From Nematopogon swammerdamellus (taxonomy: Eukaryota; Arthropoda; Insecta; Lepidoptera; Adelidae): a stretch of DNA of 64,000 bases. How positions within the stretch are numbered: the stretch's first letter is position 1; every line of letters begins with the position of its first letter. Positions 7,376-49,935 of the stretch are shown here, piece after piece. The notes under the pieces are model-generated. The model was not told the origin of the DNA. It searched no databases and was given only the letters and a program-made list of their open reading frames with translations. The DNA lies in contig OX336336.1 in assembly GCA_946902875.1 (NCBI GenBank), positions 27,979,558-28,043,557 on the forward strand, in the 5' to 3' direction. A program made the position numbers and the translations under genes.

Positions 7376-7668
7376 GTATAGTCCCACTGCATCTCTTCCC
7401 GTGCATGTCGTAAAAGGCGACTAAGGGATAACGACAAGATGCCGTGCATAAGGGCGACAGGCTAGCCACCTTGGCGCGCTCTTTCCACCTAATCATGCAG
7501 CAGGTGGGTCTTCGTGCCTTACTTGCTGCCTGATAGTTATCTTGTCCGAATACTTTGCTAAACGTGGTGGTCGGTGTTGTGCTGTAATTTACCAAAGTAC
7601 TTGCAGCACAAAACCGAGTACTCTGCTTACCCCGATTGTCGGGATACGGCGTGTGGTGTGTAGCAAAA
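7376..7668 (-). mobile_element. SINE-C copy
   Basis: Near-complete body in reverse orientation: CACTGCATCTCTTCCCGTGC, GCGACTAAGGGATAACG, ATCATGCAGCAGGTGGG, GTCGGTGTTGTGCTGTAATT, CCGATTGTCGGGATACG. No head is visible. Confidence 0.75.
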
Positions 7669-13440: not shown

Positions 13441-13657
13441 ATTATTAGTATTGATATTGATTGATGATTGATTGATGATTTTTACATTGACATGAAATGA
13501 TTTATTTTTTCGTCACACAACAACTCAAATAATTACAAACACAAATAAACATATAACATGTCACGAAAAGGGGGACCACTCAGCTGACTCACTATCCGAG
13601 ATAGCGAAGCAGATTTTCAGGGGCTCCCTTATAAATTAGTATAATATAACTCGCAGA

Positions 13658-13661
13658 GTAT
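13658..13661. repeat. Target-site duplication (left), GTAT
   Basis: GTAT immediately precedes the TG of the left LTR. The same four bases follow the CA of the right LTR. Confidence 0.9.
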
Positions 13662-14055
13662 TGTGACGAATCACAACCTACCTCAATGAAAATAGCTAGC
13701 AATAGGACGTATGAAGGCTGGCTGGTAAAATGTTATAAGGCGTAGGAGTTAGTTTAGCGCCTGGGTAGTGAGTATAGCAATGAGACCGCGTTGCGTATAA
13801 ATTGTAGCGGGTGGCATGTAGTCAGGCGCAGATAATACAACTTGCATACATTTTGAACAGGAATAGCTAGCAACACCGTATAAGCGAGAAATGATGATAG
13901 ATAAGTATTATAGGTCGGCATGCAGTAAGATATAGGACGAATTGACTGTATTACATCTACTTTTGTGAATTCGTAGCATTTTTCAGAGATTAGTTACTGA
14001 AAGTTTTAGGGAAATATGGAACGCATTTTTAAGGAAATTTTCTTCAGGCATTGTG

Positions 14056-14152
14056 ATTGGTCGACCAATGGGAGACGCGGAAATGATGTTGGGGATGATT
14101 TCCGATTGGTCGTGGGGGTGAGGGTGGGAGTAAGAAAGCGAGGCTATTTAAG
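14056..14152 (+). promoter_or_regulatory. Predicted LTR pol II promoter
   Basis: A perfect palindrome ATTGGTCGACCAAT (14056-14069) gives two head-to-head CCAAT boxes. A further ATTGG lies at 14105-14109, then a G-rich GTGGGGGTGAGGGTGGG stretch, then a TATA-like TATTTAAG at 14145-14152. A start near 14172-14182 would make U3 about 0.5 kb and R+U5 about 2 kb. The identical block in the 3' LTR lies 11,707 bp downstream. Inference from motifs only. Confidence 0.6.
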
Positions 14153-14469
14153 GGCGTGTAACACGGTAGGAGCACTTTTTCTGCAGCTGCGAGCCTCGAG
14201 GGAACAACGTGCCTGAGCCCCGGTCATCTCTAAGTCGCATCGAGCGCCATTGTTTTCCGGCATCAACGCTTCGGTGAGTCTCGGACGCCGCGCGATATTT
14301 TGGAGTTTTCTAGTTGCAATTCGACCAGTTCTATTAAATTGCATTGTCTTGAAGTCTTCTTTTGGTGGCTGGGCTAGTTTTGGAAACAATACTGGCTTTT
14401 CAGAAATTATTTGCTAGTATTAGGGATGTGAAATATTTTTATATGGACCATCACTGGAGCACTGTGTGG

Positions 14470-14800
14470 GATGCTAGCTATGCTGAAATATGCATACATG
14501 CATACTATTACAGGGCTCTTTCCTTTTTGGAGCACTGGGTGAGGGAGCGGGTACGCTGAAATATGCATGCACGCCCACTCACGCAGAGTTCTTTCATGGA
14601 ATGTTGTGAGGGAAGCGGGTACGCTGAAATATGCATACACGCACGATCTCACAGGGTTCTTCCTTGGAACGTTGTATGTTGGTTGCGGGTACGCTGAAAT
14701 ATGCATGCGCGCGCACTCATGCGAGGTTCTTTTCCTTTCGATGGAATGTTGGGTGGCAACGCTAGCTATGCTGAATAAGCATACACGCTTGTTCGCACAA
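14470..14800 (+). repeat. Five-copy ~70-bp motif array inside the LTR
   Basis: The core GCTGAAATATGCAT starts at 14482, 14555, 14623 and 14693. A variant, GCTGAATAAGCAT, starts at 14770. Spacing is 68-77 bp. Between cores three TTC-N3/4-GAA palindromes occur (14593-14601, 14660-14669, 14737-14746). Each core is preceded by GGGTACGC or GCTAGCTAT and followed by ACACGC or a similar sequence. It lies downstream of the TATA box, so it could act as a DNA enhancer or as a structured leader RNA. Confidence 0.8.
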
Positions 14801-14954
14801 GATTCAGTTCATTCTCTATGATATCACGAGAAAATGCCTCGTGGTAAGAAGACGTAACATAATGTCGAAGAGCAACTGGAATTCTGGCTAAATTATCAAA
14901 TTAAAACGTGGGTAGTTAGGTTCTTCAAACACTAAATTCATATTGGTAGGTTAG

Positions 14955-15325
14955 TCATGTAGCTGTGTGAATTAATTCTCCTTAATCTTGCAAGGGAGAG
15001 AGGGTTCGCTTCGTGGGAACGAGTAGTATCATAGCGTGTAGTATTTAGTGAGGTAGGTACTAGGAAGACCAGGTAAGTACCCCTCAGTAATTCTCCTTAA
15101 TCCTGCTAGGCCGTGGGGACCTTTTCATTTTATTAGTATTAAAGTCATATGGTAGGTTAGCCATGTAGCTGTGTGAATTAATTCTCCTTAATCCTGCAAG
15201 GGAGAGAGGGTTCACTTCGTGAGAACGAGTAGTACCATAGTGTGTAGTATTTAGTGAGGTTAGGTACTAGGAAGACCAGGTAAATACCCCACAGTGGTTC
15301 TCCTTAGTCCTGCTAGGGGGAGAGG
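14955..15325 (+). repeat. Duplicated ~185-bp LTR module with donor-like sites
   Basis: GGTAGGTTAG-CATGTAGCTG through TGTGTGAATTAATTCTCC, GGGAGAGAGGGTTC and GTAGTATTTAGTGAGG to GGAAGACCAGGTAA occurs twice, at about 14951-15112 and 15151-15325. Each copy contains an ACCAG/GTAA site (GT at 15073 and 15280). The first, CAGGTAAGTA, is a full match to the metazoan 5' splice-site consensus. Confidence 0.75.
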
Positions 15326-15723
15326 TCCCGATTGTTATGATCTGTTAGAGCGATACCTATTCTATCTGGGCGAAGGAGTGGCGGTACTCTAAGGACCGGT
15401 GCAAGCTGAGCCGACCGTCTGAGGAGGAAACCTGTGGTAGCCTTCTTTCGATAGGCGGAGTCCGTCGGACAAAGTACTTCGAGGTCAGGATAGGGACCAC
15501 ACACACACACACTTACACACACACGCACGCCTTTAGGATTTGGGGTCCGCAGGGGCCCTAAATCATCCACATTACACCACGAATTTCATTTTAAATCTCT
15601 TCCTAAGAGAAACAGTTTCTTCACAGGATAGGAATCAAAGGGGGCCATTAGGTATACAAAATAGAGCTGCTGGTAGTAAAGCAGCCCTATATGGATGATG
15701 GCCACTGTGAGGAGCGTGGAGAG

Positions 15724-15785
15724 CCCGGGTGAGGAAACCCGGACTTGTGGAGCTCCTTACTTCCCCCTCCGGGGGGAAATTGTTT
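15724..15785 (+). other. Tandem stem-loops in the LTR
   Basis: CCCGGGT-GAGG-AAACCCGG forms one hairpin. TTCCCCC-TCC-GGGGGGAA forms a second a few bases later, both G/C-rich. Copied exactly in the 3' LTR. They could stall reverse transcriptase, stabilise the RNA or serve as a packaging structure; the sequence does not decide. Confidence 0.6.
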
Positions 15786-16219
15786 GAATAATTTGAAAAT
15801 TACTGGTGAACACAATCTCTGGGAGGAGAGAACACAGACAATTACAATGTGATGGAAGAGACATAGCAATATAGGAGAGGGGGACTTAGGCAGAAAATTA
15901 CATATGTAGTTAGAATATTATTCGAAGAACAAAGGTTAGGATAGAAAGCTAGGGATTGAGTTAGTACTCTGGGTTATACGGTTACACAACGCTTCCTCGA
16001 AGAGAGGAAGATACAGGGTCCATCTACACTTAATTCAGTGTATACGTATGTATACATTGATTGAGTTTACCTAGAGATCACTTGAATGCTAAACGCAGGC
16101 CATGTTTTATTTTAGAGGTTACTCGCGGAAGCGTGGAATTTCGGAATAATTATTCGACGACACCTATCAGGTGAAGTATAAATACAAAATATACTTTGGT
16201 GGGAGGCTAGTTCGTCGCA

Positions 16220-16465
16220 GTGGTGCCTAAGACCAGGATAGTTCCTATCTAAATCTAGGATACCTAGGGTTCAAAAAAAAAAAAAAACAAAAAAAAAATT
16301 GATTTAAAAAAAAAAATTATTAAATAAAAGGGAAAATTGAATAACAATCTAGTACGTTGAAGTGGAGCCTTAAGACCAGGCTAGATTCTATCCAAATCTA
16401 GGATACCTAGGGTTCAGAAAAAAAAAGAGGGAAAAATGGAAGAAAAATGTAGTTCGTTGCGGTAG
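16220..16465 (+). repeat. Candidate primer-binding zone, reiterated
   Basis: One base after the LTR, TGGTGCCTAAGACCAGG begins (16221), in the usual position and with the usual TGG start of a tRNA primer-binding site. I could not match it to a particular tRNA. The region from the LTR end through CTAGGATACCTAGGGTTC (16273) recurs diverged at about 16352-16418 (GAAGTGGAGCCTTAAGACC). A third, weaker copy of the LTR end is at about 16453 (TTCGTTGCGGTAGTTCAGGAC). A-rich tracts separate the copies. Confidence 0.55.
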
Positions 16466-17839
16466 TTCAGGACAATAATAGGGGTCTTATATACTCAAAA
16501 GCGATAGGAAAAAATCCAACTCATAGGGAGTAGCGATATAAGTAAATAGCGTTATAGGAAGTGATAATTCGGTGAGGAAATGTGTGAAAAGTGGTTCGTG
16601 GAACGCGGTGCTGACTGGCAGTTTCGCGAGAGAAGAGATTTGGACTCCCGCCTACGAGGCGGGAGGTTTCGCCGCTTGAAGCTGAGAGTGAGTACATATT
16701 TCATTTTCCGGCGCGAGTGCAGTCTGTGTACAATTAGTTAATTACAGAAATATTGTCTACAATTTGCCGACAATGTTGCTAGAAAACCGATTTTAACGTG
16801 ATCAAATTGTCACCAGAAAGTCGACTAGAGATTCATCTTTGAGTTCGTAAAAGAAAATTGCTTACATTTCCTTCTAGGAAGTTCATTATCATTGTTCTGC
16901 GGACAACTAGAAATAGTTAAGTGAAACCCAATTTTGACCAATGGGATGTGAGCGCCGGTGCGGGATGGCTAGAATGAGCAGCGCCGTGATAGGAAAAAAA
17001 AATCTGTTTGCACGAAGAATGTAGTCGGGTTGAGAGGTGATAGACTAAACAAAGTGGAAGTTAGGGGAATGGTATGTATGAATGGTGTGAGGCATATTTC
17101 TAAGCGGAATGTTAGCAACTTCGTAGAAGTAAGGTGGGGCCAAAGGGAAATATTTTATCCAGAGATTGTGAAACTAAAATCAATAATTTATTCCGGGTAC
17201 ACCGAGATATAGCAGGAAGAGGAAAATTTTTTTTATATGGGTTATCGGAAAAATTGTGCTATAAGCCTAAAAGCCAATTAATTAAGAATCCTAGAATGAG
17301 CTAAAATCAACAATATTGTAGTAAGAATATTCTATGAAAACCTTAGTTGTAAAATTGGATAGCCATTCTACTTAAGTTAAGGCACGCCAACTGAGCGCGG
17401 AGGGCTTCATACCTAAAACACTGAAGTTATGTTCGAAAATAATATTGTCATGTGTAATAATTAGGTACACTCGTGCGCGAAATAGTTTATCGGGGCCAGT
17501 TTGAGGTCAATAAAGGGAATTTTCTAGTTGTTTTTGTGGAAAGGAAGTTAGTTGGGGTGTAAGCTTCCTTTGTAAAATAAAAAAGCCGTAAAATATGTGT
17601 GTTTGAAAAGAGTGGTTATGTTTGACCGGGTTCCAACAGACTCATTTAATTTTTGGTTGGGATTGTCGCCGATGAATAAAAAGATTCGAATCTTTATTTC
17701 ATTTTTGTGGGAGCGAGAAGAATGAAACATGGCATTTTGGAAATGTATAATGGATGTTTAGTAAATAATTTGTGTAGTAGTGATAAGGTGTGAATTTTAG
17801 GCTCCAAAGTAGGTATTTCGCGAACTAGTAGCGAGCGAA
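16466..17839. other. LTR-element interior, unassigned; one strong hairpin
   Basis: No coding family recognised. At about 16646-16666, CTCCCGCC-TACGA-GGCGGGAG makes an 8-bp perfect stem, followed by GAGAGTGAGTA, which resembles a splice donor. The frames at 17030-17212 (+) and 17548-17730 (-) are short and unlike any family I know. Confidence 0.5.
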
Positions 17840-18600
17840 GGTATGGCACTTACTAGTAGGTGATGGTAGGTTAAGGTTAGGGGATCCCAGTTAATTGATG
17901 TGACTAATTAGGTGCCATGTACAAGTGAAGGTTAGTTGTAAAGTTGTGTATAGGTCTGACTTTTCGTGTGTGGGCAATATGGTACTTACTAGATTAGGTT
18001 AGTGGTAAATAAAGGTCATGTTGTACAAGTTGACCAGTGGAAGTAATTAGGTGCCTTGTACAATGTTGGTTAGGTCATGAGGTTGAGTCTTGGTCAGATT
18101 TTGTGTGTGTGTGGCGAATAGAGGCTCTTAGTGAACATGCCGAATACGTGGTTCATTTCGAGTGAGTGGTTTTGGGCTTGAATGTAGTGTTTGTTTATTG
18201 ATAGGGAATGGATTATTAAGTTTGTTTATTTTGGAGCTGATTGGCTGGTATGAGGAATGGGGGGTTCCAGTTGCTTGCTGTATGGGGAATGTATGAGTCA
18301 AAGGGTTAGAAGGGGGAATAAGTGCCATGTCGGAGAACGTACCGGACGAGATATTGAATTTTGGTCGGTCATGCATGAGTGTTTTGGGTCGGTCCGTGCG
18401 GAATGTGGGAGGTATGGATTATAAGGAGTATGGCAATTAGGTACCATGACAGAGGTCGAGGTTTCGATTTTAGGTTGCGGTCGTATGTATAGGTGTCAAA
18501 AGGTGAGAGGGCCAGTTGGTGAGTGTTGATGCGGATGGAGGTCGAATTAAACCTGTCGATTTGTGATCCATATCGAGTGAGTGGTTTTAGATTTGCCCAT
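17840..18600. repeat. Highly diverged tandem repeat zone
   Basis: Recurring blocks about 100-200 bp apart: (A)CTTACTAG-(A)GGT, AATTAGGTGCCATGTAC or AGTGCCATGTCGG, and TCGAGTGAGTGGTTTTGG or TCGAGTGAGTGGTTTTAG. Order is kept but sequence has drifted, so the unit length is not exact. G+T-rich on this strand. Confidence 0.5.
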
Positions 18601-18716
18601 AAATGTGTTTGCTTAATGAATTAGACTAATTTATATATCATATTTGATACATATGTAGGTACATGTTGCACGCGTTGAAAGTAAACAGTCGGGGTGGGCG
18701 GAGTGATTGGTGTTGT

Positions 18717-18775
18717 GCGGCGGGAGCTCTGGTGAATTGCAGCACAACGCCGAGCACCACGTGGTGCAAATTATT
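18717..18775 (+). repeat. Captured SINE-C-like scrap inside the LTR element
   Basis: GAGCTCTGGTGAATTGCAGC followed by ACAACGCCGAGCACCACG resembles the SINE-C segment at 49678-49720 (GAGCTTGGGTGAATTTCAGC, ACAACACGGACTACCACG). The match is short and diverged. Confidence 0.5.
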
Positions 18776-18825
18776 TTATACCTAAGTTTGGTTATTGTGC
18801 GGGCTACAAAGTTGTGTCAGGGGTT

Positions 18826-19215
18826 TCTAACTTTTCTAAAGGGAAGTGTCAGGGGTTACAAACCTTTTTCCAAATTTAGATTGTCAGGGATTTCGAAATT
18901 TTCCAAATTCATGATAAGTCAGGGGTGCTCAAACTTTTCTAAATTTATATTGTCAGGGATTTCGAACTTTTCAAATTCATGATAAGTCAGGGGTGCCCAA
19001 ACTTTACCAAATTTAGATTGTCAGGGATTTCGAAATTTTTCAAATTCATGATAAGTCAGGGGTGCTCAAACTTACCAAATTTAGATTGTCAGGGATTTCG
19101 AACTTTTTCAAATTCATGATAAGTCAGGGGTTCTCAAAAGTTTCCAAATTAAGTTTGTGTCAGGGATTTCGAACCATTTCAAAATCGTGGCATGTCAGGG
19201 GTTTACAACTTTATT
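18826..19215 (+). repeat. Tandem array 1, ~68-bp period
   Basis: TTGTCAGGGATTTCGAA recurs near 18881, 18949, 19018 and 19086. It alternates with AAGTCAGGGGTGCTCAAAC, so each ~68-bp period is made of two related ~34-bp halves. The frame running through it is repetitive and has no known domain. Confidence 0.85.
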
Positions 19216-19224
19216 TACAAAAAT

Positions 19225-20640
19225 ATTTTTTATTTAAGGGAGGTCTCAACATCCAAAAAATATTTTGGAGTCAGTGGTTCTCAGCTTTGAAAAATGTTTT
19301 TAAAATTTGAAATTTTAGGGTCTCAACTTTAGAAAAATATTTTATTTCACCTCAGGATATTTAAGGGAGGTCTTAACTTCCAAAATATTTTGAACTTAGC
19401 GGTTCTTAATTTTCAAAATTATTTTCAAATTTTGAAATTTTAGGGTCTCAGCTTTAGAAAAATATTTTATTTCACCTCAGGATATTTAAGGGAGGTCTTA
19501 ACTTCCAAAATATTTTGAACTTAGCGGTTCTTAATTTCCAAAAATATTTCCAAATTTTAAATTTTTTGGGTTCTCAATTTTTGAAAAATATTTTATTTCA
19601 CCTCAGGATATTTAAGGGAGGTCTTAACTTCCAAAATATTTTGAACTTAGCGGTTCTTAATTTTCAAAATATTTTCAAATTTTGAAATTTTAGGGTATCA
19701 GCTTTAGAAAAATATTTTATTTTCCTCAGGATATTTAAGGGAGGTCTTAACTTCCAAAATATTTTGAACTTAGCGGTTCTTAATTTTCAAAAATATTTTA
19801 AAATTTTGAAATTTTAGGGTCTCAATTTTTGAAAAATATTTTATTTTTCCTCAGGATATTTAAGGGAGGTCTTAACTTCAAAAAAAAAAAAAAAAAATTT
19901 GAACTTAGCGGTTCTTATTTTTGAAAAATATTTTCAAATTTTAAACATCTTAGGGTTCTCAATTTTTGAAAAATATTTTATTTTTTCCCTCAGGATATTT
20001 AAGGGAGGTCTTAACTTCAAAATATTTTGAACTTAGCTGTTCTTAATTTTCAAAAATAATTCCAAATTTTAAATTATTTTGGGTTCTCAATTTTTGAAAA
20101 ATATTTTTATTTTCCTCAGGATATTTAAGGGAGGTCTTAACTTCCAAACATATTTGAACTTAGCGGTTCTTATTTTTGAAAAATATTTTCAAATTTTAAA
20201 CATCTCAGGGTTCTCAATTTTGAAAAATATTTTTTTTTCCCTCAGGATATTTAAGGGAGGTCTTAACTTCAAAACATATTTGAACTTAGCGGTTCTTAAT
20301 TTTCAAAAATATTTTAAAATTTTGAATGTTTAGGGTTTCAACTTTAGAAAAATATTTTATTTTCTCAGGATATTTAAGGGAGGTCTTACCTTCCAAAAAT
20401 ATTTTGAAGTTAGACACTCTCAACTTTCAAAAATATTTTAAAATTTTGAATGTTTAGGGTTCTCAAATTTAGAAAAATACTTTCATTTTCCAGATTATTA
20501 AGGGAGGGTTCAAATTCCAAATATTTTGGACTAAGCGGTCCTCAGACTTTCAAGAATATTACCAAATTTGGAATGGTTTAGGGTTCTCAACTTTAGAAAT
20601 ATTTTAATTTTGGGAATGTTTTGGGAGGAGCCGGACTTCT
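19225..20640 (+). repeat. Tandem array 2, ~125-bp period, about 11 copies
   Basis: TATTTAAGGGAGGTCTTAAC recurs near 19235, 19359, 19488, 19611, 19737, 19860, 19998, 20126, 20254 and 20377, and degenerately near 20500. Within each unit GAACTTAGCGGTTCTTAATT, AAATTTTGAAATTTTAGGG and AAAAATATTTTATTT follow in order. Unit edges are phrased like array 1, so array 1 may be the ancestor. Satellite-like and AT-rich. Confidence 0.9.
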
Positions 20641-22559
20641 CAACTTTCAAAGTGTTTCGGATTTTGAATATTTCAGGGAACGTACAGAACGTTAGAGATG
20701 CTTTTATTCTTTTGGAATGTAAGGGAAGTGTGTTATGAAGATTGCACTTAACGCGAATCAAGAACACGGTAATGGACTATTAGAGATATTGTAAGTAATT
20801 ATAAATTTATACCGTGCAGCGCTCTCACTCGATGCTGGCAGTAGTGAACGAATTCGCTATTCGTTTGATTCCCACGATTAAAAAGGGAAGAAAAAAAGGA
20901 GAAACTTTGTTCTAATAAACACCAATACACACGGTCAAACAAAATATCAAATATTGTGTGTGTATACAGGTTCAACTCGAGGTTTGATTATTGGATAGAC
21001 TATCATGAATTGGATGTGATTTATTGTGTTAATTATTAGTTATTTTTAGTAATTTACTTTCTTATCTTTGAACTTAGCTATATCTGCTTTTGCATAGAGG
21101 ACATTTTCCCCACATGCGCAGGCATATCTGATCGTGTGCACGAATGATACTTGCGTACTTAGGAATCGGGAATACATTGGTGTTTGGGTGCGTGGGCGCA
21201 TATTTAATTGTTTACTTGTGTTACTTGTATGTCTATAGATACCTAATTGCGTGCGTACATGCGTGGATGCGTGCAGGCGTTCGTGCGCATATGTAATTGT
21301 GTGCGTACTTGCTGATTGGTATGACTATGCTTGCGTATCCGTGCGTACATGCATATTACGTGGTTACCTGCGTCGGTAGGGATTGATGTGGATGCGCGGG
21401 GACAGGCTTCGAACCCCGGACTGCGGGTGGTTCGTCACTCTTCGGTTTATGATCTGGCTACGTATTTGTGAGTGAGCTGAGTACATCTTAATATTATCCT
21501 ACTGGAAAAAAAAGAGTAAGAAGAGAAAAGAAAAAAAAAAATAACCAAAAGAATAACAAAAGGTAAGTGTATCTCGCAATATTATATTTTAAAATGATAG
21601 AACAAGGACTTATAGTTAAATAAGATGCTGATGAAATATTTTGCTACTACTCTCAACCATCCAGGGATTGACAGGAAGAAATTCTTATAATGGGATAAGT
21701 CCGCCTTTACGCCTCAGATAAATTATGTACCGTGCATGTTTCTGTGAGATGTGTCCGAACGGTTGGGAATTATTATTTATCTATTTATGTTAAATAATTT
21801 ATTTTCATGGATGAATACTAAACCACATATTTACATAGACTAATCACGTGTTTATAGGGCGTATACTTACATGGACTTAACTATATTTATATTTTTTTAA
21901 ATATCAATTCTATAATTAATTATTAGACCAAATAAGAGGTAGAGGATTTGAATATTGTTTTAATTATGATTTTTCCTTTTCAGGAAGATACTTATTCGTC
22001 TTTGAATAAATAGGTACTTGAGTGCGGTTAATGTTAACGTTTTATTTATAATGGGGCTTACATAAGTCTACGCATACCAAAATCAACGAATATTCTTCGA
22101 TGCACATACGGATTTCAATATTGCAGGGCAATATTGAATTATTATTAATTTATAATCAAGATTGAAAAAAATATATATATACGAATTAAACTTGGCGTTT
22201 TATTAGGTACACTGGACCATTTAAACGGTGCCCTGTATCTATTCTTATTAGAAGGTCCTATTGTCTCATATTATGATGGAACAGGTGGTAAAATGTTTCA
22301 AGTTATATATAAAATTACTTATAAAATAAGAATCTGGTTTTATTGTTCGGGTTGTGTGAAGCAGAATACTGTTACACACATCGCCTTGACATTGCGGGGT
22401 CTTTTATAAGTATCTTAAACGAGTATTGTACGTCGGGTTGATAAATGCTGTATGAGGTGACGAGTGTTGTGTAAAAAAGTTTTATCATCGTGCTAGCTGA
22501 AGGCGGGTAATGTTGAGCGGATCTTTATGCATTTGTTTTGGGTGGTGAGTTATTTAGGA
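20641..22559. other. LTR-element interior, unassigned
   Basis: No recognised protein or repeat family. About 21200-21360 is rich in TGCGTGCGTAC/ATGCGTG steps. At about 21405 a CTTCGAACCCC patch resembles a T-arm, without a convincing tRNA around it. AT-rich sequence follows. Confidence 0.5.
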
Positions 22560-24060
22560 GAGGTTGGGGTTGGGGAAGATACATTAATTTTATGGGAGGA
22601 TGAGCGATGGAGGATACGACGAATCTGGCGGGCGAACGGTGAGCGTTCAACAATCGTACTAACCTTTATGTTATGCATGTATACTATTATTTAGAACGCG
22701 GAATTTGGAAGGCGAAGAATTGGGAGAAGTTTGGTTTGACGTACAGTAGAGATTTCCTATTTATCTGGTAACTGAAAGGACGACTCCTTTACGGCGTACG
22801 CGCATCATATTGTGCCGTAACAAGAGCATACTTGTTGTCTTTAGGGTTACGGAATGCATATGTTTAGGCGGGCGAGAAAATGGAATAGGTTAAAATTAGA
22901 TAGAAAATAAAATAAATGTTATAGAATAAAATAGGTATGGTAATGATCAAAGATAAAAACTACCTTCTTATCGCAGTCTTAAGGGAATGCGAATCTGTAC
23001 GTGTAGAACATAGGTTTAGGGAGGGCCGTGATCGTCTAGTTGGTAGGACCCTACGTTGTTAAGTTAGTATTGCTACAGTGCGATACTGTTTAACTTAGAG
23101 CAGTAGTAGAATAATGATTTATTCACTGTTCACTACTGAAATTTCAGAATTGAAACTGATTTGGTTTGGTAAAATACGGTATAAGTGGTACGATTTGACT
23201 TGGTAAAATACAGTAAGTTGGTACGATTTGAATTGGTTTGGTAAAATACGGTATAAGTGGTACGATTTGACTCGGTTTGGTAAAATACGGTAAGGTGGTA
23301 CGATTTGACTCGGTTTGCTAAAATTCGGTAAGTTTGGTATGAGATGTCACGATTTAGTAAAATCGGGTACATGAAGATAGACTTGGAGAAGGTAACGTCT
23401 GGTCTACTGAACCGATTGGTCATAGGTATTGGCGTAGGAATTTGGTGAGAGTAGATACAACATAACAAAGATAAGTAAGCAGGAACAGAGGGAGCAGGAA
23501 CCTGAGTAAGGAATGCCGGGCGGTGACGAAGGAGTGAGCGATAATAGAGTAGTAAGGTTAGGTTAGAGGTTAGCCCCATAGGATTACAAAACCACGTAGT
23601 TGTCATAGGATAGGATAGTCCGGCAGGCGAGGTAGGATAATAGGTAGGTTATTTTTCGTATGTGCAATATAGGAAGGGAACCATTAGAGAACGATCAACA
23701 TTTGTTGGACGAGCTATAGAGTAAACATAGTTTGGCGGGCGTACTACTTGGGTTGTTACGCAGATAGAATATAGTAAAATAGGATAAGAGAGGAGTTTAT
23801 ATAGGGATAGATAGAGCGTGTACGAAAGATATTTCGGCTAAAATATCAGTTGAAACAAGTCATTTAATACAGAGCGTCATAGATTAATCACGGATTCTAC
23901 ATAGTCAGGCGGGCGAAAGAGTATGAAAATGAAGTAAAATTGGTAGTTGGGGCGTCGAACGTAGCCACGGATCATGTGTAGGTTGGCGAGTGAAATTATG
24001 CTGTCCGGAAGTAAGGACGAGTTAGGAGATACAATTGTAGATATAGATTCTTAGTATTAT
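22560..24060 (+). repeat. Degenerate long-period repeat marked by GGCGGGCG
   Basis: GGCGGGCGA or a one-base variant recurs near 22628, 22866, 23611, 23733 and 23909, and GGCGAGTGA near 23986, usually preceded by T-rich TAGT/ATCT. The surroundings resemble each other weakly (ATAGAATATAGTAAAATAGG-like). The motif appears again at 25359, directly against the 3' LTR. Confidence 0.45.
23160..23345 (+). repeat. Tandem array 3, ~45-bp period, 4-5 copies
   Basis: GGTTTGGTAAAATACGGTA and GTGGTACGATTTGACT alternate. The longest interior frame (23133-23606, minus, 157 codons) runs through this array as Y-H-L-T-V-F-Y-Q-T-like repeats and is not a credible gene. Confidence 0.85.
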
Positions 24061-25368
24061 TTTGGGGTTAATTAAAGGACGGAAACAGTAGAGACTATAG
24101 CATGTATATAGCTAGGAAATAGGAAGCTCTAACGAATAATACCCGCTACGGACAAATAGGAATAAAATCCTGTTCGGCGTGGGGGAGTTGAGCTATTGAT
24201 AAATTATGAACAAAAGGTTTTAAGACTTAGAATAGACTTGTTGGTAGATGCTGGGTTTGGATGGTTGTGTAAATACAGAAATACGCGAGTAAACCATTGG
24301 GTATTATAGTGTCTGTACTCGGTAGTGAAACTTCCTTCTAATGAGAGCAGAGCTCTGACCTGAAGGGACTTTTACAATGAATCAGGACACTTTGGTTTCG
24401 ATTTTTATTGCATTCCCCATACATTGCTCCGAAAGGAATGTGAACGTAAACTCAGTGTGTTGAACACACGAATGGGACTTGGAAAATGTGAGGTGAACAA
24501 AGCCATAGTGCAGAACTTTACATTTCATCGAGACCTTAATTTGTTCTCACTCGGGAGGGAAAATGTTATCATGTACCGAGGGCGTTCTACACTAAGCAAA
24601 AAGGGAGCGTTTAAAGTTAGTGGTGACATCTTCCGGTCTATGAAAAGTGATAGAACATAGCAATTTGAACCATTGACCGGAGCAATGTTGGATGAGATTA
24701 AAGTAGAGTCGTGTACAATCAGACTGGGCCCATCCATTTGTAAACGGGTGAGTTAGTTAGCAAAGGATATGATTCGGAAGAAGCAAAGTCAATTTAAAAT
24801 TTTATCAGTAATAATTTCCCAGTTTTCCTGTCTATAACTAGAAAGGTTAAGGTGTTGGAATGTGCGGCGTGTCTAAACCGGAGGTGGCAAGGTATGTTGT
24901 GCGCTCTCCCTGGAGAGAAGTACTGATCCGCCCTACCAGCGAGGGGTAAGACTACAGGTTTCCTGAGCTGGTGGGAAATCTTTCTATGGCATGAAACAGG
25001 GTATTAAGTGTTTAGTAATTTCATTTTGAGCTTCTGATGAGTCTAACCTGACTATACTAGGACGAATGCCCATATGTTGTGTTGTGTGGTCGGGACTGCT
25101 TAGCACCAAAATAAAATGCCACAATCATTCTGGTAAGGGAACAAACACCCTATTAGAAGAAGTTGTTGGTACTACGGACCTTCTGGACAGGGAACGAACA
25201 CCCTAACAGAGGCACATCTACGAAAAGCAGTACTGCAGCCATAGCATTAATATATGTTGGCGACAGACAGACATAGACTATAGTATGGTGTAGAGACGCT
25301 AGTCGCGATCATGGAAGGAGAAAATAGATTCTTTCCCATGCCGCGAAAATCGCCTCTAGGCGGGCGAC
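24061..25368. other. 3' part of LTR-element interior, unassigned
   Basis: An isolated frame at 24424-24660 (+, 78 codons) has no recognised domain. The 50 bp before the 3' LTR lack a continuous purine tract. The nearest candidate is GGAAGGAGAAAATAG at 25315-25329, about 40 bp away. The bases directly against the LTR are TAGGCGGGCGAC. Confidence 0.5.
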
Positions 25369-27926
25369 TGTGACGAATCACAACCTACCTCAATGAAAAT
25401 AGCTAGCAATAGGACGTATGAAGGCTGGCTGGTAAAATGTTATAAGGCGTAGGAGTTAGTTTAGCGCCTGGGTAGTGAGTATAGCAATGAGACCGCGTTG
25501 CGTATAAATTGTAGCGGGTGGCATGTAGTCAGGCGCAGATAATACAACTTGCATACATTTTGAACAGGAATAGCTAGCAACACCGTATAAGCGAGAAATG
25601 ATGATAGATAAGTATTATAGGTCGGCATGCAGTAAGATATAGGACGAATTGACTGTATTACATCTACTTTTGTGAATTCGTAGCATTTTTCAGAGATTAG
25701 TTACTGAAAGTTTTAGGGAAATATGGAACGCATTTTTAAGGAAATTTTCTTCAGGCATTGTGATTGGTCGACCAATGGGAGACGCGGAAATTATGTTGGG
25801 GATGATTTCCGATTGGTCGTGGGGGTGAGGGTGGGAGTAAGAAAGCGAGGCTATTTAAGGGCGTGTAACACGGTAGGAGCACTTTTTCTGCAGCTGCGAG
25901 CCTCGAGGGAACAACGTGCCTGAGCCCCGGTCATCTCTAAGTCGCATCGAGCGCCATTGTTTTCCGGCATCAACGCTTCGGTGAGTCTCGGACGCCGCGC
26001 GATATTTTGGAGTTTTCTAGTTGCAATTCGACCAGTTCTATTAAATTGCATTGTCTTGAAGTCTTCTTTTGGTGGCTGGGCTAGTTTTGGAAACAATACT
26101 GGCTTTTCAGAAATTATTTGCTAGTATTAGGGATGTGAAATATTTTTATATGGACCATCACTGGAGCACTGTGTGGGATGCTAGCTATGCTGAAATATGC
26201 ATACATGCATACTATTACAGGGCTCTTTCCTTTTTGGAGCACTGGGTGAGGGAGCGGGTACGCTGAAATATGCATGCACGCCCACTCACGCAGAGTTCTT
26301 TCATGGAATGTTGTGAGGGAAGCGGGTACGCTGAAATATGCATACACGCACGATCTCACAGGGTTCTTCCTTGGAACGTTGTATGTTGGTTGCGGGTACG
26401 CTGAAATATGCATGCGCGCGCACTCATGCGAGGTTCTTTTCCTTTCGATGGAATGTTGGGTGGCAACGCTAGCTATGCTGAATAAGCATACACGCTTGTT
26501 CGCACAAGATTCAGTTCATTCTCTATGATATCACGAGAAAATGCCTCGTGGTAAGAAGACGTAACATAATGTCGAAGAGCAACTGGAATTCTGGCTAAAT
26601 TATCAAATTAAAACGTGGGTAGTTAGGTTCTTCAAACACTAAATTCATATTGGTAGGTTAGTCATGTAGCTGTGTGAATTAATTCTCCTTAATCTTGCAA
26701 GGGAGAGAGGGTTCGCTTCGTGGGAACGAGTAGTATCATAGCGTGTAGTATTTAGTGAGGTAGGTACTAGGAAGACCAGGTAAGTACCCCTCAGTAATTC
26801 TCCTTAATCCTGCTAGGCCGTGGGGACCTTTTCATTTTATTAGTATTAAAGTCATATGGTAGGTTAGCCATGTAGCTGTGTGAATTAATTCTCCTTAATC
26901 CTGCAAGGGAGAGAGGGTTCACTTCGTGAGAACGAGTAGTACCATAGTGTGTAGTATTTAGTGAGGTTAGGTACTAGGAAGACCAGGTAAATACCCCACA
27001 GTGGTTCTCCTTAGTCCTGCTAGGGGGAGAGGTCCCGATTGTTATGATCTGTTAGAGCGATACCTATTCTATCTGGGCGAAGGAGTGGCGGTACTCTAAG
27101 GACCGGTGCAAGCTGAGCCGACCGTCTGAGGAGGAAACCTGTGGTAGCCTTCTTTCGATAGGCGGAGTCCGTCGGACAAAGTACTTCGAGGTCAGGATAG
27201 GGACCACACACACACACACTTACACACACACGCACGCCTTTAGGATTTGGGGTCCGCAGGGGCCCTAAATCATCCACATTACACCACGAATTTCATTTTA
27301 AATCTCTTCCTAAGAGAAACAGTTTCTTCACAGGATAGGAATCAAAGGGGGCCATTAGGTATACAAAATAGAGCTGCTGGTAGTAAAGCAGCCCTATATG
27401 GATGATGGCCACTGTGAGGAGCGTGGAGAGCCCGGGTGAGGAAACCCGGACTTGTGGAGCTCCTTACTTCCCCCTCCGGGGGGAAATTGTTTGAATAATT
27501 TGAAAATTACTGGTGAACACAATCTCTGGGAGGAGAGAACACAGACAATTACAATGTGATGGAAGAGACATAGCAATATAGGAGAGGGGGACTTAGGCAG
27601 AAAATTACATATGTAGTTAGAATATTATTCGAAGAACAAAGGTTAGGATAGAAAGCTAGGGATTGAGTTAGTACTCTGGGTTATACGGTTACACAACGCT
27701 TCCTCGAAGAGAGGAAGATACAGGGTCCATCTACACTTAATTCAGTGTATACGTATGTATACATTGATTGAGTTTACCTAGAGATCACTTGAATGCTAAA
27801 CGCAGGCCATGTTTTATTTTAGAGGTTACTCGCGGAAGCGTGGAATTTCGGAATAATTATTCGACGACACCTATCAGGTGAAGTATAAATACAAAATATA
27901 CTTTGGTGGGAGGCTAGTTCGTCGCA
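25369..27926 (+). repeat. 3' long terminal repeat, 2,558 bp
   Basis: Same sequence as 13662-16219 at a fixed offset of 11,707 bp. The one difference I noticed is GGAAATGATGTTGG in the left copy against GGAAATTATGTTGG here (about 25792), which changes the translation of the short frame at 25723 from GND to GNY. All promoter, array, donor-like and hairpin features are duplicated. Confidence 0.93.
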
Positions 27927-27930
27927 GTAT
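27927..27930. repeat. Target-site duplication (right), GTAT
   Basis: Follows the terminal CGTCGCA of the 3' LTR and matches 13658-13661. Confidence 0.9.
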
Positions 27931-29651: not shown

Positions 29652-30165
29652 GTTTTTTTTTATGTAAACCAGCATGGGTGGCTGTGCCGAGGAACCAATG
29701 GTGCAGTCGACAGAGCCAAAATCACCTCTCCTCGCGAAACCACGCACAGTTAGGTGCCATGCCAGCAGATTTGCGGACTGTTGCTAGGCTGTCTAGCCCG
29801 TTAATACGACGCTTGAAGACACCCAGGTTAAAGGATTCAGGAAATACACTCGCTGGAAGACAGTTCCACACCCTAGCGGTGCGACAAAGAAACGATTTAG
29901 AGAACCGATGGGTTCTCAAAAGCCCAATGTCAACAACAAAAGGGTGTTGAGTCTCTCTGCGACGAGTCATGCGGAGATAGGACGGGTGGCAGGGAATAAG
30001 GGATGCTAGTTCCGCAGAGCAGCGTCCGTGATAGTATCTGTAAAACAGACTAAGCGAACCCACAAACCGTCTGTGACTCAGGGACTCCAGACCATCTGTA
30101 AGTTTCGGGTCACCAACAAGACGGATGGCTCGGCGCTGTATCGAGTCCAAGGATGCTAGCAGATA
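29652..30165 (-). pseudogene. LINE-1 3' end, longest copy in the window
   Basis: After a reversed poly-A and 3' UTR, the minus frame reads (N to C) L-D-S-I-Q-R-R-A-I-R-L-V, G-S-L-S-L-F-Y-R-Y-Y-H-G-R-C-S-A-E-L, R-T-H-R-F-S-K-S-F-L-C-R-T-A-R-V-W-N-C-L-P-A-S-V-F and F-K-R-R-I-N-G-L-D-S-L-A-T-V-R-K. This is the conserved C-terminal tail that follows the polymerase in jockey/CR1-group LINEs. No fingers/palm sequence is present. The frame itself is intact, so the copy is fairly young. Confidence 0.8.
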
Positions 30166-30184
30166 TGCTAGTGTATACATATAT

Positions 30185-30345
30185 ATTTTTATAGAATGCA
30201 CGTCACGTGGAGCCGAGCCACCCATGAGGTGTTTAACGACGCCTATGGCCATTCGGACCTATGCGGGGGGTTTTTTACGGGTTGCGAATGCCATGCCGGC
30301 CTGACAGGAGCCTTTTCACGCCCCTTTCGAAAAACCCCACGCTGT
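30185..30345 (-). mobile_element. LINE-2 3' end
   Basis: CGTGGAGCCGAGCCACCCAT, GCCATGCCGGCCTGACAGGA and CACGCCCCTTTCGAAAAACC, as in the copies at 32000 and 34822. It abuts the 5'-truncated end of LINE-1, so an intact-looking frame runs across the junction by chance. Confidence 0.7.
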
Positions 30346-34821: not shown

Positions 34822-35340
34822 TATAGAAAGCGCGACATATGGCTCCGTTTCAATTTCGAGTAGGTGACTCACGATGCCCATGGACATTCTGTGATGCACG
34901 GGGATTGCAAATGGCATGCCGGCCTGACAGGAGCCTTTCACGCCCCGTTTTGAAAAACCCCAGGCTGTGCTTGGGAGGAAATAGATGAGCAGGGAGTGCG
35001 TTCCACCTTTTCCCGGTTCTGTGAATAAAAGACCTACAGAACCGGTTGGTGCGCATCCTCGGTAGGTCGATTGTATAGGAGTGTATCCCCTGCCCAGTAC
35101 GCGTAGTGCGGAGGTGGAATGGGGACGATGGAATCGCGTTAAACAGCTCCTCCGAACACTCCGCGTGAAATAGACGATAGAACACACTTAGGGAGCCGAC
35201 GTCCCTACGAAGTTGAAGCGGTTCTAAGTCGCGGGACACCACAGGGTCATCCACAAGTCGCACGGCACGACGCTGGATTGAGTCTAGCGGCGCAAGCTGG
35301 TATTTAGCTGAGCCATCCCACAGGTGCGAGCAGTACTCTT
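34822..35340 (-). pseudogene. LINE-2 3' end (C-terminal ORF fragment)
   Basis: The minus frame at 34850-35263 reads (N to C) R-L-V-D-D-P, L-E-P-L-Q-L-R-R-D-V-G-S-L-S-V-F-Y-R-L-F-H, R-M-R-T-N-R-F-C-R-S-F, W-N-A-L-P-A-H-L-F-P and a degenerate end. The D-S-I-Q-R-R start of the conserved tail lies just upstream. The polymerase domain is lost. The 3' terminus GCGACATATGGCTCCG is present. Confidence 0.8.
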
Positions 35341-36336: not shown

Positions 36337-38075
36337 TTTTTTTTTTTTTTTTTTTATTGATACGCGAGACACTTGGCGCCGTCAGCATGGATTTTTGAGC
36401 CGACGACGCCCAAAAGCATTCGTTTTAGAACGGGGGCTGCGAATGCCGTCCCGGCGTGACAGATGCCTTTTTACGCGTCTCTTGAATGATCCCAAGTCAT
36501 ACACTGAAGGAAACACATCAGTAGGAAGTGCATTCCAGAGTTTCGCAGTGCGGAAGATAAAAGAAATACTGGAGCGCTTAGTCCGCACTTTAGGCAGCTC
36601 TACAGTATAGGGATGCATTCCCTGTCTGTTACGCGTGGACCTATGGTGAAATGGTGAAGTCGGAATTGTTTCGAACAGCTCCTCAGAGCATTCACCGTTG
36701 AACAGTCGATAGAACACACTTAGTGAACCTATGTCTCTACGGAGCTGCAAAGGTTCAAGTTTGCAGGACACTTCAAAGTCGTTAACTTGGCGAACTGCAC
36801 GTCTTTGGATCGAGTCTAACAAGCCAAGTCGATACTGAGCAGCCCCACCCCAAAGATGCGAGCAATACTCCACGCATGACCTCACCTGCGACTTATACAG
36901 CAGCAGGATTTGGTCAGGCGTAAAGTATCTCCGCGCCTTGTTCAGGACGCCCAGCTTTTTAGAGGCAAGCTTAGCTTTGTCCTCGATGTGACGGCCGAAG
37001 TTGAGTTCGCGGGTTAAGTCCACTCCAAGGATACTAAAGTGGTCATCGACGTTCAACCTTGTGCCCTGGAATTCGGGAGCTGAGCGAAATGGCGATTTTT
37101 TCGCACTAAACGCACACGCCTGTGTTTTAGTTGCGTTGAACTGTACCAGATTTTCCTGGCCCCATAATGAAATTAGGTGCAGGGTTTTCTCAATTTCAAC
37201 AACAACACTACGCCTGCCCTCCTCCACTTCCTCCTTACTGGCACTGGGGCGGCTGCCGTAGCGTCCGTGTACCGTGCTGTCATCTGCATAACAATGAATA
37301 TCACCAAGGGATAGTAAGTCATTGATATGCAGAAGGAACAGCGTAGGCGATATCACGGAGCCTTGTGGAACGCCAGCGTTCACAGCCATGGCATCGGAGC
37401 AGCAGCCGTCTACTAGGACCTGAATACTGCGGCCATGCAGGAAGTCGGCGATCCAGTCGCACAGATCGGAGGGGAGGCCGTAGGACGGCAGCTTGGATAG
37501 AAGTGCCTTGTACCAGACGCGGTCAAAGGCCTTTGATATATCTAGACCAATAGCCATAGCTTCACCAAAGTCTTCAAGCGATTGACCCCAGAGGTGGGTG
37601 ACGTACACTAGTAGATCCCCGGCCGAACGCTTTGGCCTAAAGCCGTATTGCCTGTCGGAGATGAGGTCATTGGTCTCTAGGTACGTCATTATTTGAGCGT
37701 TAATAACTCGCTCCATCACCTTGCAAAGCAGGGAGGTAACCGCTATCGGACGATAGTTGGCAAGGTCAGAACGATCGCCTTTCTTTGGGACCGGCTGGAC
37801 GTAGGCAGACTTCCAAGCCGATGGCACCTGGCCAGAGGAATAGGACAGGCGGAACAGGCGTGTGAGGATAGGGGCCAACTCAGGAGCACACATCTTCAGC
37901 ACCAGAGCGGGGATCCTGTCGGGTCCACTCGCTTTCCTGACATCCAGACCGAGCAGCTCCTTCCGTACGGTGCGTTGACGAAACTGCACCTTTGGCATGG
38001 AGCACTCGCATCTGGGGATTGACGGAGGTGACGCACCGTCCATACAAAAAACGCTCGCGCACGGCAACGGCCCAA
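36337..38075 (-). mobile_element. Jockey/CR1-group LINE, 5'-truncated, nested in MITE
   Basis: A 19-bp T run at 36337-36355 is the reversed poly-A. It is followed by a short 3' UTR (ATTGATACGCGAGACACTTG) and the RT ORF, ending near 38075 where MITE sequence resumes. No endonuclease domain is present. I could not identify a target duplication with confidence. Its tail resembles, but is not identical to, LINE-2. Confidence 0.85.
36382..38067 (-). CDS. Non-LTR reverse transcriptase, N-terminally truncated
   Basis: 561 codons, open from a non-ATG position to a stop. Motifs: S-G-P-D-R-I-P (residues 48-53), A-N-Y-R-P-I-A-V-T-S (103-112), Q-Y-G-F-R-P (140-145), the catalytic L-D-I-S-K-A-F-D (175-182), A-G-V-P-Q-G-S-V-I-S-P (231-241) and C-Y-A-D-D with the second catalytic pair (259-263). 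A thumb and the group's C-terminal tail (D-S-I-Q-R-R-A-V-R, L-W-N-A-L-P) follow. The polymerase looks enzymatically complete, but the upstream endonuclease and ORF1 are missing, so the copy cannot retrotranspose by itself. The family is the one usually labelled 'mobile element jockey' polymerase in insect annotations. The clade (jockey versus CR1) is not certain. Recent insertion is suggested by the undamaged frame. Confidence 0.88.
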   Translation of the reverse strand: MPCASVFCMDGASPPSIPRCECSMPKVQFRQRTVRKELLGLDVRKASGPDRIPALVLKMCAPELAPILTRLFRLSYSSGQVPSAWKSAYVQPVPKKGDRSDLANYRPIAVTSLLCKVMERVINAQIMTYLETNDLISDRQYGFRPKRSAGDLLVYVTHLWGQSLEDFGEAMAIGLDISKAFDRVWYKALLSKLPSYGLPSDLCDWIADFLHGRSIQVLVDGCCSDAMAVNAGVPQGSVISPTLFLLHINDLLSLGDIHCYADDSTVHGRYGSRPSASKEEVEEGRRSVVVEIEKTLHLISLWGQENLVQFNATKTQACAFSAKKSPFRSAPEFQGTRLNVDDHFSILGVDLTRELNFGRHIEDKAKLASKKLGVLNKARRYFTPDQILLLYKSQVRSCVEYCSHLWGGAAQYRLGLLDSIQRRAVRQVNDFEVSCKLEPLQLRRDIGSLSVFYRLFNGECSEELFETIPTSPFHHRSTRNRQGMHPYTVELPKVRTKRSSISFIFRTAKLWNALPTDVFPSVYDLGSFKRRVKRHLSRRDGIRSPRSKTNAFGRRRLKNPC

Positions 38076-38593
38076 AATTTTGAATGTTCAGTGAAAAACC
38101 ATTTATTCTGTAAGCGTTTTAATTTATTTAGATGATTCGTAGTCTTATTGACTCTAAGCTCAATGAAGCATTTTTGGTATTAGATGCATTTGTAAAAAAT
38201 GGCGAGGGAACTAGCAAAGGAATTTTTGAACGATTTTACCACTTTTCAACTACATATTTTTAAGGGAATTTATAAGATTAAATTATAAATAATGTATTCA
38301 CATTATACCTTGAATCATTACCTAACTATAGGCATATAAATTATAGTTAAATCACTGGAAATATGGGTAAGGTTAGGGAAATACGAAGTGTTTTTGCCTA
38401 GTACCCCCCTTAAATGTTATTCCCAGACGGTCCCGGCCCAAAACAGCTGCCTCTTGCAGTCTCGTTGCAACTCAGACTAAACTCGACACCGACTCGACTT
38501 CGGCGAGTGGGCAATTTGCTCATAGAGCGCGCGCCACTGTACATCGCTCCCACCCTCACTCGGTGCGGTGTATCTTGTTAAACTTGTGAACTT

Positions 38594-46777: not shown

Positions 46778-47097
46778 AGCCACGGGTGGCGTAGTGTTTT
46801 GGGCATCAGCTTCTCATGCGAGAGGTCCGAGGTTTGAATCTGGTCGGAGTGTACCGATGAGTTTTTTCTGACGAAAACATTTACGTGCAACCATCGGTGT
46901 TGTGCTGCAAGAACTCTGCTAAATTACAGCACAACACCGACCGCCACGTTTCGCAAAGTATTCGAACAAGATTCAATCGATCAAGCAGCAAGTAAGGCAC
47001 GAAGACCCACATGCTGCATGACTCGGTGGAAGCACCGTGCCAAGGTGAGAGGTGGCGAGCCTGTCGCCCTTTAGCACGGCATCTTGTCCTTACCCTT
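46778..47097 (+). mobile_element. SINE-C with tRNA-like head
   Basis: CACGGGTGGCGTAGTGTTTT, CTTCTCATGCGAGAGGTCCG and AGGTTTGAATCTGG make a tRNA-like A-box/B-box head matching SINE-B. After GTTTTTTCTGACGAAAA the body switches to ATCGGTGTTGTGCTGCAAGA and continues through CATGCTGCATGACTCGGTGG to TTAGCACGGCATCTTGTCC. This is the only copy in the window that shows the head and so fixes the family's sense strand. Confidence 0.8.
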
Positions 47098-47864: not shown

Positions 47865-48128
47865 AGTTGTTGGTAGTAGTAGACTTGTTGACATTGGGTT
47901 TTTGATAACGCATCGGTTCTCTAAATCATTTCTTTGTCGCACCGCTGCTGCTAGAGTGTGGAACTGTCTTCCGGCGAGTGTATTTCCTGAATCCTTTAAC
48001 CTGGGTGTCTTCAAGCATGGCACCTAACTGAGCGTGGTTTCGCGAGGAGAGGTGATAGCTCTGTCGACTGCACCGTTGCGTTGGTCTCTCGGCACAGCCA
48101 CCCATGCCGGTTTACATAAAAAAAATTA
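47865..48128 (+). mobile_element. LINE-1 3' end with internal deletion
   Basis: TTGACATTGGGTTTTTGATA through TGTGGAACTGTCTTCCGGCG and CTGGGTGTCTTCAAG, which jumps directly to CATGGCACCTAACTGAGCG. The segment encoding R-I-N-x-L to A-G-M is deleted. Ends TTTACATAAAAAAAA. Confidence 0.8.
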
Positions 48129-48133
48129 GTGAA

Positions 48134-48757
48134 GGTAGACTTTGGTGGGTAGCAGCTATAGTAAAGGTAGACTTTGGTGGGTAGCAGCTATAGTAAATGT
48201 AGACTTTGGTGGGTAGCAGCTATAGTAAAGGTAGACTTTGGTGGGTTGCAGCTATAGTAAAGGTAGACTTTGGTGGGTAGCAGCTATAGTAAAGGTAGAC
48301 TTTGGTGGGTTGCAGCTATAGTAAAGGTAGACTTTGGTGGGTTGCAGCTATAGTAAAGGTAGACTTTGGTGGGTAGCAGCTATAGTAAAGGTAGACAGAC
48401 ATTTGTGGGTTGCAGCTATAGTAAAGGTAGACTTTGGTGGGATGCAGCTATAGTAAAGGCAGACTTTGGTGGGTTGCAGCTATAGCAAAGGTAGACTTTG
48501 GTGGGTAGCAGCTATAGTAAAGGTAGACTTTGGTGGGTTGCAGCTATAGTAAAGGTAGACTTTGGTGGGTAGCAGCTATAGTAAAGGTAGACTTTGGTGG
48601 GTTGCAGCTATAGTAAAGGTAGACTTTGGTGGGTAGCAGCTATCGTAAAGGTAGACTTTGGTGGGTTGCAGCTATAGTAAAGGTATACTTTGGTGGGTAG
48701 CAGCTATAGTAAAGCTAGACTTTGGTGGGTAGCAGCTATAGTAAAGGTAGACTTTGG
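48134..48757 (+). repeat. 32-bp minisatellite, about 19.5 copies
   Basis: The unit starts GGTAGACTTTGGTGGGTAGC and ends AGCTATAGTAAA. Most differences are one site, GGGTAGC versus GGGTTGC. One copy carries a small insertion near 48390 (GACAGACATTTG). It starts just after the LINE-1 poly-A, with the unit following AATTAGTGAA. Confidence 0.95.
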
Positions 48758-49460: not shown

Positions 49461-49935
49461 TAAATTCCATCACGCTGTAACCCGACAATCGGGGTGAGCA
49501 GATTAATCGGTGTTATGCTGCAAGAGCTTTGGTGTATTTCAGCACAACACGGACTATCACGTTTAATAAAATATTGGGACAATACAATACAAATTATCAA
49601 GCACCACGAAAGATTTAAATTCCATCACGCTGTAACCCGACAATCGGGGTGAGCAGAGTAATCGGTGTTATGCTGCAAGAGCTTGGGTGAATTTCAGCAC
49701 AACACGGACTACCACGTTTAATAAAATATTGGGACAATACAATACAAATTATCAAGCACCACGAAAGCGCAAAGGCAGTTACCTACTGCATGACTGTGGA
49801 AGGACCGTGCCAAGGTTGAAGGTGGCTAGTCTGTCGTCCTTTAGCACGGCACCTCGCCCTTACCTTCGAAAGTCGCCTAGTCGCCATTTACGAAATGCAC
49901 GGGGAGAGATGCAGTGGGGCTATTCTTTTCAAGTA
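49461..49935 (+). mobile_element. SINE-C body with a 155-bp tandem duplication
   Basis: TAAATTCCATCACGCTGTAA to CAAGCACCACGAAAG occurs at 49461-49612 and again at 49616-49768, offset 155. The second copy continues into the rest of the family (TGCATGACTGTGGAAGG, TTTAGCACGGCACCTCG, GGGGAGAGATGCAGTGGGGC). Confidence 0.8.

Follow-up and report, generated by a model that had tools for sequence, protein, structure and literature searches.

Noncoding and coding retrotransposons with shared long terminal repeats (LTRs) occur together in rice as Dasheng and RIRE2, and a comparable arrangement surrounds the LTR element described here, which occupies positions 13662-27926 of a 64-kb stretch of DNA from the moth Nematopogon swammerdamellus (the window; C4:27979558-28043557 of a 699-Mb genome in 39 contigs, with positions given in the numbering of the window). 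As judged from its sequence and that of its relatives, this element is very probably a noncoding, non-autonomous derivative of a Ty3/gypsy family, similar to large retrotransposon derivatives (LARDs) and presumably mobilised in trans by the coding copies of its own family. In Culex quinquefasciatus, 38 LTR families named cqUNK, one of them 14,602 bp long, resemble the window element in lacking coding capacity and in having LTRs more than 98% alike, a primer binding site (PBS), a polypurine tract (PPT; putative here), a target duplication and internal tandem repeats (PMC3286476). They differ in that their LTRs measure 125-931 bp against 2,558 bp here, and in that the available text of that paper reports no master copy, whereas coding copies with the same LTRs exist in Nematopogon. 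The LARD definition calls for LTRs of about 4.4 kb around a noncoding central domain of about 3.5 kb, and the ant study that gives it held, in its available text, that LARDs had been reported from plants only (PMC3532108). The window element shares the long LTRs and the long noncoding interior of that type but has a shorter LTR, a longer interior, tandem repeats within it and an insect host. For the moth Scirpophaga incertulas, 273,987 entries classified by software as LARDs make up 8.84% of the genome, a class total given with no element, partner or mechanism in the text available (PMC10923946). The preliminary description of the locus had proposed an undescribed system; given the Culex families and the Scirpophaga LARD class this part is not upheld, and the window element belongs to a known kind of noncoding LTR element, from which it differs by its long LTRs combined with a long interior and by its identified coding partner.

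The two LTRs, at 13662-16219 and 25369-27926 on the + strand, are direct repeats of 2,558 bp each at an offset of 11,707, with a single mismatch (14085 G, 25792 T) and a repeat that extends beyond them by 0 bases leftward and 2 bases rightward. Their ends, TGTGACGAA and TTCGTCGCA, form an inverted repeat with one mismatch, and matching 4-bp flanks mark a GTAT target-site duplication at 13658-13661 and 27927-27930. Near-identical LTRs, TG...CA ends and a short target duplication are the features of an LTR retrotransposon, and the repeats, offset, terminal inverted repeat and duplications first reported for this locus were all reproduced by the LTR alignment. The 9,149-bp interior (16220-25368) contains 27 open stretches of at least 60 amino acids, against a mean of 21.1 (standard deviation 4.1) in 200 order-1 Markov shuffles. 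Its longest frame, of 171 amino acids, overlaps a 38-bp tandem repeat and was equalled in 2 of the 200 shuffles, where the longest frame averaged 114. No Pfam family came near its curated cut-off in ten open stretches searched (9 of the 27 in the interior and 1 of the 11 in the LTR; best E 0.082), and tblastn of the coding partner's proteins against the window recovered no remnant (best E 0.14). These open-stretch statistics and searches speak against a coding interior, and together with GC content that is equal by codon position (0.367/0.368/0.367) they agree with the original observation that the interior holds no gag-, pol- or env-like frame. Searches of the window with Rfam at gathering thresholds and with ARAGORN gave no matches, and viral contigs gave 0 matches to a 20-base LTR/PBS pattern. 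The large, conserved, noncoding interior is that of the LARD type, with full-length matches to its noncoding segment 92-100% identical, and an element of 14.3 kb with an LTR of 2,558 bp falls outside the terminal-repeat retrotransposons in miniature (below 1000 bp, LTRs of about 100-350 bp; PMC3532108).

The coding relative sharing LTR ends that the preliminary description had envisaged was found as a copy on C30, whose LTRs are identical to each other and 98.2% identical to those of the window element. Its leader aligns with the window up to 20787 (16220-20787, +, 92-96% alike) and its 3' part from 23157 (23157-25368, +, opening with the 38-bp tandem repeat), with indels. Between these regions the C30 copy has about 8.1 kb of coding body where the window element has a noncoding-only segment at 20788-23156 (+), in place of the gag-pol and BTB frames. 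Compared with the C30 pieces, this segment gave short matches only (at most 31 bases at E below 0.05). The body comprises a 244-amino-acid frame that is gag-like by position rather than by profile, having no Pfam match above cut-off; a second frame, overlapping the first, that matches G-patch (2.7e-8), retropepsin (7.8e-6) and RVT_1 (5.9e-25); a third that matches RNase H (2.8e-31) and the integrase family rve (2.6e-13); and two further frames, of 135 amino acids and of 352 amino acids with a BTB/POZ match (1.3e-23). The order of protease, reverse transcriptase, RNase H and integrase is that of Ty3/gypsy elements, and the window copy is without pol. Integrase DNA at least 96% identical occurs in 11 copies, so the family departs from the Culex type, which lacks a coding relative; 28 further rows are 71-74% identical. 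The nearest proteins to those of the partner include a metagenome protein (49%) and two unnamed products, one from Parnassius mnemosyne (44%) and one from Arctia plantaginis (43%). At L040:4757-6526 a G-patch precedes the protease of this insect Ty3/gypsy pol; the domain is also described in type D retroviruses and in some gypsy elements of plants (PMC9289625, available text).

The helper might alternatively be a sister family with integrase DNA about 74% identical. This family has the same PPT and the same first 9 LTR bases, observed at C6:19612818, C11:915441, C13:22941070, C15:5374305, C22:5804637 and 8 more sites, which are 13 two-mismatch PPT-LTR junctions with another LTR continuation, the five named ones adjoining the 74%-identical integrase. 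Against such a helper, the window element and the family's own coding C30 copy have kilobases of LTR, leader and 3' region in common, and coding LTRs fall among noncoding ones (see below); we regard it as improbable that the sister family, rather than the element's own coding copies, supplies the proteins.

Genome-wide patterns provide a census of the family. The 5' LTR-PBS junction occurs 71 times (at most 2 mismatches; reversed control 0), which after subtraction of 2 doubled leaders gives 69 elements. For the PPT-LTR junction the count is 82, against 0 in the control; of these, 67 match exactly, 2 differ at one base and 13 differ at two. The noncoding segment was counted through a 26-base word, which was found at 55 sites (at most 3 mismatches; control 0), and each of the 55 lies downstream of a 5' junction of the family that has the same orientation. 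The 69 elements thus divide into 55 noncoding copies, 10 coding copies, one copy (C22) deleted for gag-pol with a BTB frame, and 3 unclassified elements at C9:16626685 (2.3-kb interior), C2:25562973 and C26:11356691; a further coding copy, the eleventh, lies at C20:7869859 and shows no 5' junction at the threshold used. Junction-to-junction length has a median of 9.66 kb in noncoding copies (8.2-21.4 kb; 54 copies) and is about 15.3 kb in coding copies (14.4-45.4 kb; 10 copies). LTR 3' ends number 178 (at most 2 mismatches; reversed control 0), leaving approximately 40 solo or truncated LTRs (178-69-69), an estimate since the patterns differ in length; the start-of-LTR pattern was too short for counting. 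An initial LTR search, in which 40 of the 681 first-look candidates were scored, had given at least 52 matches; the first-look counts, 681 with the LTR and 619 with the segment, pointed to hundreds of copies, a notion dropped in view of the 71 junctions and 55 segment sites. The left break of the segment agrees with that of the window in nine noncoding copies (C20, C12, C27, C7, C25, C28, C6, C16 and C9). The C9 copy's long interior had seemed coding and is explained by a BEL/Pao element nested antisense in its leader repeats (L042, L043), with open frames of 878 and 1141 amino acids and a Pao peptidase match of 1.7e-48.

Thirty loci were cut out with 1.5-kb flanks for LTR comparison: 13 run into G and the PBS, 13 have TAGGCGGGCGAC in front of them, 3 are solo LTRs and 1 is without its 5' part. 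Within 12 LTR pairs the number of substitutions is 0 in four, 1 in three, and 2, 3, 5, 7 and 8 in the remainder. The 4-bp target duplications match in 10 of the 12 pairs and mostly differ from site to site, and the solo LTRs looked for following the first analysis were recovered with matching 4-bp duplications in 3 of 3 examined. A copy on C20 is 99.9% identical to the window element, with different flanks and the target duplication TAAG; its 5' LTR lies at distance 0.0004 from that of the window, and the interior differs by 8 mismatches and 2 gaps over the three pieces compared. Because this near-identical copy sits at another site with another target duplication, the noncoding 14.3-kb unit has moved recently, and the near-identical copy and the small differences within LTR pairs sustain the earlier suggestion of a recently active family. 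The almost identical LTRs could by themselves suggest an assembly artefact, which had been named as a possible refutation, or a segmental duplication; the matching, mostly site-specific duplications of 10 of the 12 pairs and of all 3 solo LTRs, the spread of the 69 elements over many contigs, and a C20 copy with its own flanks and duplication leave this explanation with a negligible probability. Simple decay of a formerly coding family, with the noncoding copies as dead relics that are not mobilised in trans, is also very hard to credit. Loss of gag-pol did happen in the family, as the C22 copy attests, but tblastn recovered nothing of the partner's frames in the window, a word from one replacement segment recurs in 55 copies, and two copies at different sites, that of the window and that on C20, are 99.9% identical in a family whose LTR pairs differ by 0 to 8 substitutions.

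The relationships among the LTRs bear on whether coding and noncoding copies meet during replication. If the segment had a single origin and the coding and noncoding lineages did not exchange sequence, their LTRs would be expected to form separate clades. We compared one LTR per element in a tree of 12 noncoding LTRs, 2 coding LTRs and that of C22, with solo and partial LTRs left out. Forcing the noncoding LTRs to one side of a branch lowered the log-likelihood by 177.75; since this same split was tested from two sides, with p-values of the approximately unbiased test (p-AU) of 1.9e-52 and 8.4e-6, the exact p is unreliable. Grouping the two coding LTRs as a clade was likewise rejected (83.50 log-likelihood units worse, p-AU 1.9e-5), and the C30 LTR is placed next to those of the window and C20 copies (support 83/75). 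In this tree the LTRs do not sort into a coding and a noncoding clade, a pattern expected if the RNAs of the two kinds of copy recombine, and recombination in shared particles is the cause that we prefer.

After the 5' LTR the window copy has a G and then the PBS TGGTGCCTAAGACCAGGAT (16221-16239, +), a further feature of LTR retrotransposons, which is the complement of the tRNA-His 3' end except for TAA instead of GT. Among 13 5' copies compared, this site reads TAAGACC in 8, TAAGTCC in 4 and TGGTGCCGTGACCAGGAT in one (L023, the C29a copy), the last being complementary without mismatch, over 18 bases, to the 3' end of tRNA-His (its final 15 bases followed by CCA). The 21-base 3' end of tRNA-His occurs 10 times in the genome (control 0), and ARAGORN identified a tRNA-His (gtg) at the one locus examined. 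The exact PBS of L023 fits copying from a primer tRNA and, as a single case, hints weakly in that direction. The putative PPT TAGGCGGGCGAC adjoins the 3' LTR at 25357-25368 (+) and is kept at 69 junctions with at most one mismatch, yet contains C and T residues.

From the shared cis regions and the LTR mixing we infer trans-mobilisation by the coding partner. In the proposed mechanism, the noncoding form would have kept the cis parts of the coding form, namely the LTRs, the tRNA-His-type PBS, the 4.6-kb leader, the 3' region and the PPT, with the coding body replaced, probably once, by the 2.37-kb noncoding segment. Transcription from the LTR would yield its RNA, which would be packaged by Gag that the coding copies encode; reverse transcription with tRNA-His as primer and integration with 4-bp target duplications would follow, and co-packaging would let coding and noncoding RNAs recombine. 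Several observations weigh against this mechanism. The PBS has TAA where tRNA-His demands GT in 12 of the 13 copies, 4 of these 12 with one extra mismatch, and the target duplications of 2 of the 12 pairs show one-base mismatches (C30, the coding copy, AAAC/AAAT; C29a, GTAC/GTAT). No donor of the 2.37-kb segment was found. The coding or noncoding label changes 3 times on the LTR tree against 2.9 in shuffles, which is no clustering, in a test of little power with three odd rows; the groups for the clade tests were chosen after an earlier FastTree had been seen and comprise two coding, one gag-pol-deleted and 12 noncoding LTRs; and gene conversion between copies could also mix the LTRs.

The most surprising part of the system lies outside the window and is the apparent capture of a BTB gene by the coding partner. 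The BTB/POZ open reading frame (ORF) at L041:3346-4401 of the C30 copy lies downstream of the Ty3/gypsy pol and is stop-free in 10 copies at 95-100% protein identity, five over residues 1-352 and five from residue 18 or 19; an eleventh copy, on C16, is split and partial. In C22, from which gag-pol and the 135-amino-acid frame have been deleted (L040 position 4017 joined to position 2503 of L041, the two sides having about 9 bases in common), an open BTB frame of 281 amino acids remains, 80% identical over residues 21-158. Nonsynonymous divergence (dN) is lower than synonymous divergence (dS) in 10 of 10 comparisons of five copies, the close pairs among which have few changes; for C22 against C30 the dN/dS values are 0.068/0.298 over the first 107 residues and 0.361/0.724 over the remainder. 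BTB relatives at 64% identity on C24 and C23 contain stops, and at C24:2914088 and C24:2917173 a one-mismatch PPT-LTR junction stands about 3 kb from such a frame, the C24 frame and junction probably representing an old, decayed relative.

The nearest BTB proteins are products of Galleria and Danaus named tramtrack beta isoform (49% identical over 47% of the query; 81 of 167 residues for Danaus). Both contain BTB, and FLYWCH scores above cut-off in Danaus and below it in Galleria. In Mod(mdg4), as far as the available text goes, the BTB domain is N-terminal and FLYWCH is present in 27 of 31 variants (PMC9723646), and we take the Galleria and Danaus proteins as Mod(mdg4)-like because their BTB and FLYWCH pattern matches these variants. 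The partner's BTB gene therefore appears closest to Mod(mdg4)-like host proteins, a name that we use in place of the database label tramtrack; PDB searches with the BTB ORF and the Danaus protein placed them among BTB domains and nothing finer. A host Mod(mdg4)-like gene lies in the same genome at C12:6880534-6881676, with two stretches 99% and 93% identical to the Galleria mellonella protein. Against a Mod(mdg4)-like origin, the retroelement BTB query scored higher at a host locus on C4, labelled tramtrack-like by eye (90 bits), than at the separate pieces of the C12 gene (72 and 57 bits); aligned through the intron, the C12 locus reached 136 bits against 102 for the C4 locus. This intron, inferred from a break in the Galleria protein match, interrupts the C12 BTB for about 108 bases from GT to AG. 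The retroelement frame is continuous across its position, and an uninterrupted frame fits capture from a spliced RNA. Additional genes in large gypsy elements have a precedent in the 25-kb Ty3/gypsy elements of Phalaenopsis, which carry a demethylase-like domain and differ in their orchid host and in the domain concerned, the term BTB being absent from that paper (PMC9289625). A search of titles and abstract starts in one library of open-licence papers yielded no BTB-bearing LTR element. Among systems with shared LTRs, we know of no BTB gene in the Dasheng/RIRE2 pair.

Mod(mdg4) is a protein type of the gypsy insulator. A more far-reaching scheme, which we consider doubtful, is a three-tier system of coding copies, a gag-pol-less copy that keeps BTB, and a gene-less satellite majority, in which the captured BTB protein would set chromatin or insulation at the repeat-rich leader and LTR, also in trans for the satellites.

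Within the 5' LTR, TATTTAA at 14145-14151 (+) is a candidate TATA-like promoter motif, by motif only, and there is a tandem duplication at 14933-15317 (+; 14933-15110 and 15140-15317, 92%); the LTRs of the C19b copy, at 2,350 bp, are 208 bp shorter and seemingly lack the 207-bp internal duplication. The LTR end and leader are repeated at 16207-16426 (+; 16207-16283 and 16349-16426, 87% alike), and tandem arrays of 68-bp and 125-bp units occupy 18866-20611 (+). A repeat of 70-91 bp (76-80% alike), dispersed or tandem, occurs in the leader at 18685-18775 and also at 7549-7639, 46893-46962, 49485-49562 and 49640-49717. GC skew is positive in 29 of 29 half-kb windows starting at 13500-27500 (0.008 to 0.543); outside the element it is 0.02-0.07 in three windows to the left and negative in three to the right. 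Elsewhere in the window, a 578-amino-acid open frame at 36385-38118 (-) has a reverse transcriptase match (RVT_1 4.1e-29), two other frames (29725-30258 and 34853-35338) look by eye like its C-terminal part and have no Pfam match, and a 32-bp satellite array at 48127-48757 has 19.6 copies with 93% matches.

In summary, the Nematopogon family presents a coding partner and a noncoding parasite that share LTRs within one genome, at 55 noncoding to 10 coding copies among 69 elements, and because both are present together, parasite load, recombination and copy dynamics are directly measurable. With the BTB ORF of the coding partner, a gypsy-type element would have captured a host-type gene from a protein family that is itself tied to gypsy insulation.

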